Source: a virus. From it: a stretch of 23,998 bases of DNA. The notes below the pieces were generated by a model. The model made no database searches, was not told where the DNA came from, and saw nothing but the letters and a program-made list of their open reading frames with translations. The DNA lies in the IMG/VR virus record IMGVR_UViG_3300045996_000832, positions 1 through 23,998 of that record; one strand, 5' to 3'. This document shows, piece by piece, positions 2,101 to 18,068 of this stretch (position 1 is its first letter; each line of letters opens with the position of its first letter). Made by a program: the position numbers and the translations under genes.

Positions 2101-2170
2101 CTTTGACGGCTGGACTCGAACCAGCATCTCCCGCTTTCGGCGGTGCGCTTACCCATATCGCTACGTCATC
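2101..2170 (-). tRNA. Degenerate tRNA-like gene (shortened anticodon arm)
   Basis: The minus strand reads as a tRNA in most parts. The T arm is complete (GCTGG, loop TTCGAGT, CCAGC). The D arm has TAGCG, ATATGGGTAA and GCGC with the expected T8 and A9. The variable loop is GAGAT. The acceptor arm keeps only five pairs (TGACG with CGTCA), with the two terminal pairs mismatched and no encoded CCA. The anticodon arm is abnormal: CCGC, a five-base loop CGAAA and GCGG, instead of a five-pair stem with a seven-base loop and U33. GAA lies in the loop, which would be Phe in a normal tRNA, but I do not assign an identity. It is most likely a decayed tRNA or a tRNA mimic. Confidence 0.45.
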
Positions 2171-10240: not shown

Positions 10241-10392
10241 TTCACAACGAGATCCAGTGGGGAATCGCATTGACCCGACGGCCTTTCGTGTTAGAGGTGC
10301 CATCTTCGCCGCCTCTTTCCGGTGTTTCAAACACTGACGCCCCAGTACCGGTACTCGCTGCTTGCCCTGGTGCTTGCGTTCCCAACAGGCAG

Positions 10393-10509
10393 CTAGTCGA
10401 TGGGGTGAAGCAGAAATGCAAAAAGCCTTTGTATTCTGCTTTCGTGTGGGTGGAGCACACTTGCCGTCTCGCCGGCTAGAAAACAGAATACAAAGGCTTC
10501 GTTTGTCAT
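10393..10509 (-). CDS. Possible 38-aa ORF inside a long inverted repeat
   Basis: An ATG ORF of 38 residues (begins MTNEAFVFCFLAGETASVLH) with GGAG three bases upstream. Its start codon and ribosome site lie in or near one arm of the inverted repeat at 10396-10527 and its stop in the other arm, so the whole ORF can fold into one hairpin. Downstream, in a shifted frame, a stretch ending in MRFPTGSRCEGLS could be the rest of a decayed gene. I know no family for it. It could be a leader peptide or chance coding. Confidence 0.4.
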   Translation of the reverse strand: MTNEAFVFCFLAGETASVLHPHESRIQRLFAFLLHPID

Positions 10510-10527
10510 AGGCTCCACCCCATCGAC
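10396..10527. repeat. Long composite inverted repeat (hairpin)
   Basis: Outer arms GTCGATGGGGTG (10396-10407) and CACCCCATCGAC (10516-10527) match over 12 of 12 bases. Inner arms AAGCCTTTGTATTCTG (10423-10438) and CAGAATACAAAGGCTT (10484-10499) match over 16 of 16. The bases between them pair partly. The 45-base central loop holds a small hairpin, GTGTG-CACAC (10444-10460). No T tract follows. It lies in the 463-base stretch between the gene at 10591 and bet, which also contains a 13-base palindrome at 10322-10334 and the repeat at 10219-10240. Confidence 0.75.
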
Positions 10528-10590
10528 AAGGCCATTGTTTCACACATTCGCCCGCAACGCAAGCCATGAAGCGGCGGGCGCCGCAACAGG

Positions 10591-15520: not shown

Positions 15521-15528
15521 TCGCTTGA

Positions 15529-15549
15529 TGCCCGCGCAGTTTGCGGGCA
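15529..15549 (+). promoter_or_regulatory. Hairpin after the small Cys protein gene
   Basis: TGCCCGC-GCAGTTT-GCGGGCA, a seven-pair stem ten bases after the stop at 15520. It is followed by AAAAT, not T, on the plus strand, so it is not a Rho-independent terminator; an RNA-stabilising hairpin or the first stem of a longer leader is possible. Confidence 0.45.
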
Positions 15550-15589
15550 AAATAGACGTGTTGCCTTGGCAGGCGGCATAAAATCAACG

Positions 15590-15688
15590 GAAGCGCTTTA
15601 TGCATCGTGGCCGGTTCGTTGTCCGGTTCTGCCAACCCATAGAAATATGGGACGGTGCATAGAGCGCTTTTGCTTTTAAGGAGCAAAA
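15590..15688 (+). promoter_or_regulatory. Folded 5' leader RNA before the gene at 15689
   Basis: A multi-branched RNA can be read directly. The outer stem pairs GAAGCGCTTTATGCATCG (15590-15607) with CGGTGCATAGAGCGCTTT (15653-15670) with few mismatches. Inside is a perfect hairpin CCCATA-GAAA-TATGGG (15636-15651) with a GNRA tetraloop, and a second arm with TGGC (15608-15611) and GCCA (15631-15634) around CCGG repeats. A separate short stem TTTTGCT with AGCAAAA (15668-15674, 15682-15688) brackets the ribosome site AAGGAG and overlaps the end of the outer stem, so the two could compete. It is followed by ATG at 15689. No known riboswitch class fits. Confidence 0.6.
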
Positions 15689-15898
15689 ATGCTTACCTTC
15701 ATTACCTTAGGACCGGATGGCAACGGTCGCTACTCAGTGGCGTACCACACGCCCGGCAGCATCCAGAAAACGCAACATTCTATCGGCTACTCAAAAGAAC
15801 AAGCCGATACGGAGTGTGCGCGCCTGAACGAATGTCAGGTTTTCGACAAGCGTTTGGCGCTGGCCGACCGAGCAAACCGCATCGTGAAGGATCTGTGA
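15689..15898 (+). CDS. Small protein, 69 aa, downstream of the folded leader
   Basis: 69 residues beginning MLTFITLGPDGNGRYSVAYH and ending RLALADRANRIVKDL. An alpha/beta unit with no Cys or His clusters. AAGGAG lies six bases before the ATG, inside the leader hairpin. It overlaps the replication gene after it by ATG within the stop. The function is unknown; position suggests a product regulated together with the replication initiator. Confidence 0.65.
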   Translation: MLTFITLGPDGNGRYSVAYHTPGSIQKTQHSIGYSKEQADTECARLNECQVFDKRLALADRANRIVKDL

Positions 15899-16707
15899 TG
15901 CACTACTACAAACATCACATTGGAGACTTCCGATCTGGAACGGCCAACATGACCAGGCAGGAGCGCTGGCTGTACCGTGACATGCTGGACTTCTACTATG
16001 ACAAGGAAAAGCCTCTTCCTCTTGAGCCGCAAGATGTTGCGGACCAGATCGGCGCACAGGATACCGAACTGGCTATGATCGGGAAAATCCTGCGCCTGAA
16101 GTTTAACCGGATGGAAACCGGCTGGGTTCATGAGCGATGCGAGGCAGAGCTTGAATCCTACCGCGCCAATGCCGAGAAGGCCAAAGAGAACGGGAAGAAG
16201 GGCGGCCGACCTAGGAAAAATAACCCAGCGGGTTTCCAGCAGGTTCCCAGCGGGTTGCAAGGCGATTCCGGTTTGGAACCCGGCGGGGGGCCAGAGGAAA
16301 GCGGATCACAAGCTAACCATAAACCATTAACCATTAACCATGAAGAATCCCCCATACCCCCAACGGGGGCGAAAGCGGGCAAGGAAAAATCTTCTGCAAT
16401 CGCACTCCGGACATACCTTGATCGCTGCAAGGCTGAAAACGCAAAACCCCTGCCCCAAGACGACCCGGTATTCGACTATGCAGAGAAAGTCGGGATCCCG
16501 CTCGAGTTCCTGCGCCTGCAGTGGCATGAGTTCAAGGACCGCTACACATTGCCAGATGCGAAGCGTTACAAGGCCTGGAAGACGGTTTTCGGTAAATCGG
16601 TCCGCGGCAACTGGTTCAAACTCTGGTACGTGGCGCAGGACGGTTCCTACGCTCTGACGACGGTAGGCCAGCAGGCGCAGCGTAATCACACTTCGGAGGC
16701 CGCATGA
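15898..16707 (+). CDS. DUF1376 replication-initiator-like protein
   Basis: 269 residues. The N-terminus is the DUF1376 pattern: MHYYKHHIGDFRSGTANMTR, QERWLYRDMLDFYYDKEKPL and PLEPQDVADQIG. A basic segment (KENGKKGGRPRKN) and a repetitive, low-complexity middle (NNPAGFQQVPSGLQG) follow, then a globular C-terminal half. In phages this family stands directly before a DnaB helicase and acts as origin-binding or helicase-loading protein, as lambda O and P do. The gene itself contains two sets of tandem DNA repeats, so the origin is probably inside it. The start overlaps the previous stop by one base (TGATG). Confidence 0.8.
   Translation: MHYYKHHIGDFRSGTANMTRQERWLYRDMLDFYYDKEKPLPLEPQDVADQIGAQDTELAMIGKILRLKFNRMETGWVHERCEAELESYRANAEKAKENGKKGGRPRKNNPAGFQQVPSGLQGDSGLEPGGGPEESGSQANHKPLTINHEESPIPPTGAKAGKEKSSAIALRTYLDRCKAENAKPLPQDDPVFDYAEKVGIPLEFLRLQWHEFKDRYTLPDAKRYKAWKTVFGKSVRGNWFKLWYVAQDGSYALTTVGQQAQRNHTSEAA
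16224..16256 (+). repeat. Three tandem 11-bp repeats (origin iterons)
   Basis: CCCAGCGGGTT (16224-16234), TCCAGCAGGTT (16235-16245) and CCCAGCGGGTT (16246-16256), exactly in register with no spacer. They lie inside the DUF1376 gene. The setting is like the iterons in lambda O, so they are the best candidates for initiator-binding sites. Confidence 0.65.
16315..16341 (+). repeat. Four AACCAT repeats at 7-base spacing
   Basis: AACCAT begins at 16315, 16322, 16329 and 16336, each separated by one A or T. The block is more AT-rich than its surroundings and lies 60 bases after the 11-bp iterons, like the AT-rich part of a phage origin. In protein it encodes the repetitive KPLTINH stretch, so some of the repetition could be coding drift. 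Confidence 0.5.
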
Positions 16708-18068
16708 TTGACCAGTTCAACATTGAAGCAGAGCAATCCGTCTTGGGGGCGCTTTTGCGGTTCAACGATGCATTCGACCGCATCCCGCATCTGGAGGCGC
16801 AGCACTTCTACCGTGGCGACCACCGGGCTATCTTCTCGGCCATGCTGGAGGACTTCGCCGCCGGCCGACCCTTCGACCTGTTCACGGTGCTGGCGAAGGT
16901 TGGCGACCAGGTGCAGGACGGCATGCGCTATCTGAACCAGATGCAGCAGACCATGCCAAGCGCAGCGACTATTGAGCGCCATGCAAACGCGGTTCGCGAG
17001 AAATTCGTAAAACGCTCTATGGCGGCTTTGGGCGTCGAGTTGGAGGAGTTGTCCCATTCGCACGAAGAAAGCGCCGTATGCGTCGATCTGGCGGCTTCTA
17101 AGCTGGAATTGCTGGCCGAGCGTCGGTCGAAGTTTGAGCCGGTGCGAGTTTCGGACACGATCAGCGATTACCTGGCGCTGATTGAACAACGCATGAACAG
17201 GGACGCTAGCGTGATGCCGATTGCAACCGGCTACCAACATCTTGACGATCAGTTGGACGGCGGCTTGGAGCGCGGGACACTTACCGTTATCGGTGGCCGA
17301 CCTGGCACCGGCAAGACGGCGGCAGCACTGGGGATTGCTCGTCACGTAGCAATTGATGGCTTGGCCTACGTGCAATCAATGGAAATGTCGAAGAACCAGT
17401 TGAACGAGCGGAACATCGCTGCATTGGGGCGTGTGCCGATCAAGTGGCTCAAGAATCCACAAGAGGGGCCGACCGATAAGGAATATTGGGATGGCATGAC
17501 AGCCGGCGTTGCAGCGGCGTCGAAGTTGAATCTGTTCGTTGACGATCAGCCTGGCGTGACCCTGATGGAGTTGCGCGCCAAGGCCAGGAAGATCAAGCGG
17601 CAGAACGGCGGGAAGTTGGATCTAATCGCGGTCGACCAACTCAGCTTTCTGACCGGCGCGCGTTCCGACAAGCTGCACGAAGCGATGGGCGAATACACGC
17701 GCGGCCTGATCGCCATTGCGAAGGAGTTGGACTGCGCCGTGATCCTGCTTGTCCAGTTGAACCGCGACTGTGAAAAGCGCAACGACAAACGCCCGATCAT
17801 GAGCGATATCGGCGTTTCCGGCTACATCGAGCAGGACGCGGCCAACATCATCTTCTTGTATCGGGATGAGCTTTGGCACCCCGATACGACGCAGGACAAG
17901 GGCATTTGCGAGTGGATCTGTGTTAAGCAGCGCCAGGGAGCCCCCGGCACCGTGGGGCTGGAGTACATCGGTGATCAGACCCGGTTCGCCAATCCGCCCT
18001 ATCGCTGGCATCGCAAGCCTGTCACGCCACCGGCCAAGGGGAAGGTATTAAGGGGCGGATTCGATTGA
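16704..18068 (+). CDS. dnaB: Replicative DNA helicase, DnaB family
   Basis: 454 residues. The N-terminal domain starts MIDQFNIEAEQSVLGALLRF and contains FYRGDHRAIFSAMLEDFAAG. The RecA-like domain has Walker A GGRPGTGKT (about residues 197-205), a MEMSKNQLNERNIAALG stretch, Walker B DLIAVDQLSFL (about 306-316), the DnaB-type H3 VILLVQLNRDCEKR and the SGYIEQDAANIIFLYRDE segment near the end. It unwinds DNA at the fork as a ring hexamer. The ATG overlaps the DUF1376 stop, so initiator and helicase are coupled. No primase domain is present, so host DnaG is probably used. Confidence 0.93.
   Translation: MIDQFNIEAEQSVLGALLRFNDAFDRIPHLEAQHFYRGDHRAIFSAMLEDFAAGRPFDLFTVLAKVGDQVQDGMRYLNQMQQTMPSAATIERHANAVREKFVKRSMAALGVELEELSHSHEESAVCVDLAASKLELLAERRSKFEPVRVSDTISDYLALIEQRMNRDASVMPIATGYQHLDDQLDGGLERGTLTVIGGRPGTGKTAAALGIARHVAIDGLAYVQSMEMSKNQLNERNIAALGRVPIKWLKNPQEGPTDKEYWDGMTAGVAAASKLNLFVDDQPGVTLMELRAKARKIKRQNGGKLDLIAVDQLSFLTGARSDKLHEAMGEYTRGLIAIAKELDCAVILLVQLNRDCEKRNDKRPIMSDIGVSGYIEQDAANIIFLYRDELWHPDTTQDKGICEWICVKQRQGAPGTVGLEYIGDQTRFANPPYRWHRKPVTPPAKGKVLRGGFD

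Follow-up and report, generated by a model that had tools for sequence, protein, structure and literature searches.

The stretch of viral DNA analyzed here (hereafter, the window; 23,998 nucleotides [nt]) carries on its plus strand a replication operon, in front of which lies a structured segment preceded by a promoter-like sequence. The features of this locus, with support from a 63-member alignment described below, are as follows.

15525-15553, plus strand: promoter-like pair TTGATG (15525-15530) and CAAAAT (15548-15553), separated by 17 nt and read directly from the sequence; predicted RNA start at about 15560
15560-15577, plus strand: hairpin P1, GTTGCC/GGCGGC around the loop TTGGCA (15566-15571); covaries across the 63 members
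15566-15571, plus strand: 5' strand of pseudoknot PK1, TTGGCA, with its partner TGCCAA at 15630-15635
15585-15590, plus strand: 5' strand of pseudoknot PK2, CAACGG, with its partner TCGTTG at 15616-15621 in the P3 loop; adjoins P2 directly
15591-15608, plus strand: 5' strand of the 18-bp outer stem P2, with its partner at 15652-15669; 17 of 18 pairs changed on both sides
15610-15627, plus strand: arm P3 (15610-15614 with 15623-15627), its loop carrying the 3' strand of PK2 (15616-15621); 4 of 4 pairs covary
15630-15635, plus strand: 3' strand of PK1, TGCCAA, inside the three-way junction; complementary across members
15636-15651, plus strand: arm P4, CCCATA-GAAA-TATGGG, from sequence and fold
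15652-15677, plus strand: 3' strand of P2 followed by the U-rich TTTTGCTTTT, a terminator-like end
15668-15688, plus strand: alternative hairpin P5 (15668-15676 with 15680-15688), which uses the foot of P2 and covers the ribosome site AAGGAG (15678-15683)
15689-15898, plus strand: first gene of the operon, encoding a 69-aa protein
15898-16707, plus strand: DUF1376-type primosomal/replication gene (PHROGs 4118, 9327, and others)
16704-18068, plus strand: gene for a DnaB-like replicative helicase (PHROG 19; E = 2.4e-92)

The 69-aa protein has no PHROG or Pfam match and no relatives in the viral contigs, and in locus L026 the RNA is likewise followed by a similar small gene.

The predicted fold of positions 15580-15700 has an energy of -53.3 kcal/mol versus -30.0 ± 3.3 in dinucleotide shuffles (z = -7.1; 0 of 200), and the segment 15555-15680 likewise stands apart from its shuffles (z = -6.5). 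A preliminary description had placed a multibranched leader RNA at 15590-15688, just ahead of the small gene and of the replication initiator. Its position in front of these genes and its structure were both borne out: the outer stem (15591-15608/15652-15669), the six-pair GAAA hairpin that it called a GNRA hairpin (P4), and the third arm (15610-15627) are all present, as is the short hairpin over AAGGAG, one strand of which takes in the last bases of the outer stem. Its 5' boundary was not, because only the 3' two-thirds of the RNA had been noted. The element begins at 15559-15560, about 30 nt before 15590, and spans 15559-15677, roughly 115 nt. Also missed were hairpin P1, the two pseudoknots, the terminator-like nature of the U-tract, and the copies at recombination operons; what identifies this RNA is above all the overlooked 5' part, in which P1 and the 5' strand of each pseudoknot lie.

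Relatives were collected by searching viral contigs with the neighboring DUF1376-type gene, which recovered 18 loci, two of which (L004 and L012) display the same architecture in the same place. Their comparison exposed a hairpin about 20 nt upstream, the loop of which is complementary to the single junction strand (TTGGCA with TGCCAA; in L012, TTGGCG with CGCCAA). Two patterns derived from this PK1 pairing recovered 93 contig stretches in the viral_contigs database, most of them genuine as judged by structure. A covariance model of 29 sequences from which the window had been left out (R1) matched window positions 15559-15674 at an E value of about 1e-9 to 9e-11, E values of home-made models such as R1 and R2 being rough, and it also recovered members that break the search patterns. 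The alignment used below (A3) comprises 63 distinct members, almost all of which come from metagenomic viral contigs, with the window included; R2, which was built from it, gives the window an E value of 2.3e-12, but here the window itself belongs to A3. Members collected with patterns or models are biased toward the consensus. A scan for the structure without any sequence motif gave 64 distinct matches in 5 Mb (both strands) versus 4 in shuffled sequence, and 60 of the 64 are of the family type.

In Rfam (release 15), which the preliminary description had proposed to search, no family matched at its gathering score over the element in the window, and 20 loci with relatives yielded a single tRNA only. 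The family is absent from Rfam 15 as searched with these loci; the literature was covered in part, so an earlier description elsewhere is possible. Direct BLAST comparison of this region of the window with phages and plasmids gave no meaningful match, and six diverse members searched against phages recovered MW202462 and MW202544 as the only genuine relatives, these being two GenBank records of equal length for one environmental phage. In the latter (L159:11903-12145; MW202544.1, 14777-15019), the element is overlapped on the opposite strand by an annotated hypothetical protein (UOF78377.1), which is probably a spurious gene call. The exact pattern occurred at 26 places in the genome_contigs database, one of them genuine, and only two matches turned up in about 800 proteobacterial genomes, which indicates that the element is mainly a phage one. 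Nor does it simply track the helicase, since a DnaB search recovered 16 related loci with the RNA in none of them.

Covariation across the family, the test on which the preliminary description had staked its structure, was overwhelming. In A3, 97.4% of the cells are paired and 31 of the 37 counted pairs are altered on both sides, giving a covariation score of 0.714 versus at most 0.102 when the structure was slid along the alignment. Helix by helix, pairing amounts to 97.4% in P1, 100% in P3, and 99.6% in P4. PK1 is fully complementary in all 63 members, in eight versions, and the structure-only scan added a ninth (TTGCAG/CTGCAA). PK2 complementarity is likewise found in every member, with a mean score of 14.4 versus 7.8 ± 0.37 when loops were swapped between members, a difference of about 18 standard deviations. 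On an earlier alignment (A2), a single fixed register had made PK2 look weak (60 to 68% paired), which was resolved by choosing the register per sequence. Short open reading frames do cross the region on both strands, as they might if it were ordinary protein-coding DNA or an inverted repeat serving as an origin or recombination site. The compensatory changes, however, retain G-U pairs and strand-specific pseudoknots, segment lengths differ by non-multiples of three, and a promoter directly upstream and a ribosome-binding site directly downstream lie on the same strand; we therefore regard an account in terms of DNA or coding sequence as barely credible. A promoter and protein-coding explanation was what the preliminary description had named as able to undo its own. 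Judged from sequence comparison, the element at 15559-15677 belongs to a new RNA family and forms the 5' leader of a phage replication operon.

The lengths of the parts are as informative as their pairing. P2 measures 18 bp in 62 of the 63 members and 19 bp in the remaining one, which has an extra base on both strands, and this constancy holds even though its sequence is nearly free to vary; the linker (5 to 17 nt), the P3 arm (13 to 24 nt), and the P4 arm (12 to 19 nt) all differ between members. We take a fixed stem combined with variable arms to indicate a closed three-dimensional fold whose P3 and PK2 would have to extend back as far as the P2 foot. The same constancy hints that P2 and the pseudoknots form together and are not alternatives. 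Conserved exposed bases are few in this very stable fold, with the junction bases U-G and U-C and the closing C-G pair invariant or nearly so. A compact pseudoknotted three-way junction with such bases, next to an expression platform with a terminator and a Shine-Dalgarno (SD) hairpin, could belong to a riboswitch, in which a metabolite or ion would stabilize the double-pseudoknot junction and thereby set the state of the P2 foot. Yet there are very few invariant unpaired bases from which to form a binding pocket, the first genes are concerned with phage replication and recombination and share no metabolic theme, and the two matches among the proteobacterial genomes give no sign of use in host operons, all of which makes a small-molecule sensor very improbable.

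Upstream of the RNA, TANNNT hexamers pile up 3 to 4 nt before P1 in 29 clusters (identity below 75%), with a best -10 score of 5.0 versus 3.62 ± 0.18 in shuffles, from which the transcript should begin at P1. The promoter-like pair of the window itself is weak and is not found by a consensus scan. An alternative -10 hexamer, TAAAAT at 15579, was dropped once P1 and PK1 had placed the RNA start near 15560. One subgroup of members (L155:2803-2911 on the minus strand, L205:6142-6247, L205:9529-9633, L054:2303-2425 on the minus strand, and L098:11333-11453) carries its TAAAAT-type hexamer some 25 nt farther upstream, and P1 is preceded by an additional hairpin. In five loci (L062, L045, L047, L102, and L087), the copy sits right behind the apparent terminator of the upstream unit, so the promoter of the RNA would itself serve the operon.

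At the other end, a U-tract (at least 5 T in the 9 bases after P2) is present in 57 of the 63 members. The window has 6 of 9, and its G+C-rich stem followed by this tract has the makeup of an intrinsic terminator or attenuator; a short-loop scan also flags 15654-15668 as terminator-like, though such calls occur at chance level in that region. Five members (two in L030 and one each in L027, L036, and L054) keep the whole fold without a U-tract, and hence termination cannot be the sole function. The start codon follows P2 at a distance of 12 to 29 nt, mostly 15 to 23 nt, a spacing that argues for action in cis. Moreover, the foot of P2 is common to the terminator-like end and to pairing with the SD region: across the 29 clusters, the foot/SD hairpin has a mean energy of -4.71 versus -3.53 ± 0.29, and none of 2,000 permutations of the SD segments was as strong. 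P5 is much weaker than P2. The idea of two competing stems that share a strand beside the ribosome site, put forward from the window sequence in the preliminary description, is thereby supported family-wide.

These ends bear on whether the RNA might instead be a free-standing small RNA that is abundant and acts in trans, for instance, by serving a host factor as a decoy; its adjacency to a gene would then be a coincidence of genome compactness. It has a promoter at one end, a terminator-like end in most members, and a highly stable structure that leaves few conserved bases exposed, as such a molecule might. Against this stand the start codon, which in nearly all members lies at an almost constant distance suited to a ribosome, the copies without a U-tract, and the free change of the P2 and P3 sequences, which also renders antisense action unlikely; overall, we consider a trans-acting RNA improbable.

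The reading that we narrowly favor, at slightly better than an even chance, is a cis-acting leader switch governing entry into early operons. Transcription would start at P1, the loop of which would pair into the three-way junction (PK1), while the strand before P2 would pair with the loop of P3 (PK2); both pseudoknots and the stem of exactly 18 bp would then form one compact fold, with the foot of P2 as the switch point. With the foot closed, it and the U-tract would make an intrinsic-terminator-like structure that halts RNA polymerase just before the first gene; with the foot open, its 3' strand would pair beside or over the ribosome site instead. Since the pseudoknot module abuts the foot, its state would set both polymerase read-through and translation of the first gene. 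The family, its structure with both pseudoknots, its position, the copy pattern, and the promoter and terminator signals come from the comparison itself; action in cis, real termination, and the direction of switching are what we infer from the arrangement. Transcription-attenuating riboswitches and leaders, such as SAM-II metZ (PMC9373788), likewise combine a 5' leader, a pseudoknot, a terminator-like end, and ribosome-site pairing before an operon. The differences are that phage early operons rather than metabolic genes follow the leader described here and that its terminator stem also closes the folded domain.

Across the family, the first genes include DUF1376 genes, other primosomal/replication genes, HNH and NUMOD4 endonuclease genes, and recombination genes, with replication or HNH genes forming the majority. 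HNH or NUMOD4 homing-endonuclease genes stand immediately after many copies (L012, L028, L043, L047, L053, L062, L072, and others), and the conserved leader DNA may be a marker of homing insertions or a target that draws them. Similar 39-aa proteins are encoded between the RNA and the replication gene in L004:2204-2320 and L014:3439-3555. Separately, a different structured-looking region with the motif CATCGGGAAC-GCTAGGG ... CCCACCTATT lies directly before the DUF1376 gene in L002:1330-1460, L003:3770-3880, and L006:3870-4000, and is possibly another leader family at the equivalent genomic place.

Five records hold more than one copy (three in G006 and two each in G007, G022, G032, and G447), some of them divergent. 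In G032, by our reading of the genes by eye, an ERF-like recombination gene follows one copy, and a DUF1376-like gene and a DnaB-like gene follow the divergent one. In the window, the leftward recombination operon shows two further RNA features.

10419-10525, minus strand: candidate divergent second copy (R2 without filters, 30.2 bits, E = 4.5e-5)
10273-10393, minus strand: Betaproteobacteria-1 RNA (RF02932; Rfam, 73 bits)

The former lies just upstream of the latter, which in turn immediately precedes the phage's Bet-like recombinase gene. The candidate (10525-10419) has its pseudoknot partner in a hairpin loop and lacks a start codon at the usual distance, and on these two grounds it is listed only as a candidate, its membership in the family being uncertain. 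The surrounding segment (10385-10530, minus strand) forms a very stable nested structure (z = -10.9) in which a 12-bp outer inverted repeat, GTCGATGGGGTG/CACCCCATCGAC, competes with the loop pairing GGTGGAG/CTCCACC, and it is a possible divergent copy or analogue. The Betaproteobacteria-1 RNA differs from the leader at 15559-15677 in both sequence and structure. Elsewhere in the window, 2104-2168 (minus strand) has a tRNA-like Rfam match (32.3 bits).

Repetition at both early operons is also known from lambda nut, a short boxA/boxB site read by N; the element described here has a large fold instead, and no N-like partner gene was identified. Put RNAs bind the beta' zinc-binding domain and suppress termination. 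In HK022, they are cis elements at both divergent early operons, with putL just behind its promoter, and they fold cotranscriptionally, no phage protein being encoded as part of the element (PMC9378689). The strongest rival to the leader switch is action of this kind, because of the copies at divergent early operons: the emerging leader would bind host RNA polymerase and make it resist pauses and terminators along the early operon without a phage protein, the U-tract serving as a loading pause rather than an off switch. The copies at both divergent operons of one phage, right behind the promoter, match the HK022 arrangement (PMC9378689), a fixed 18-bp stem could keep the junction a set distance away from the RNA exit, the fold persists in members without a U-tract, and in one divergent phage a terminator-like site immediately precedes a leftward gene. 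Conversely, an HK022 put RNA is about 70 nt long, with two stem-loops and no terminator-like end (PMC9378689), whereas the leader here, at about 115 nt, combines two pseudoknots with an 18-bp stem and a three-way junction and in most members has a U-tract, and a complete terminator-like end on an antiterminator itself would be odd. On balance, we judge such polymerase-modifying action rather unlikely. The two-stem-loop architecture is not seen in the window element, and membership among put RNAs is therefore not claimed; by analogy, HK022 put RNA is its closest functional counterpart and not a structural relative.

Found at the heads of replication and recombination operons, the element helps to annotate them. 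The compensatory versions that occur in nature indicate which pairs can be disrupted and rebuilt in tests of control of early transcription by the RNA alone, and the invariant 18-bp stem offers a sharp structural prediction. With at least 63 distinct sequences, the family is an abundant and structurally well-defined addition to phage gene control. We tentatively raise the further possibility, which we hold to be well short of even, that it represents a new class of phage RNA, in which a double-pseudoknot domain set on an 18-bp ruler stem acts in cis on the host transcription machinery and licenses early operons. If so, this class would be a second, structurally unrelated solution to the task performed by the HK022 put RNA.
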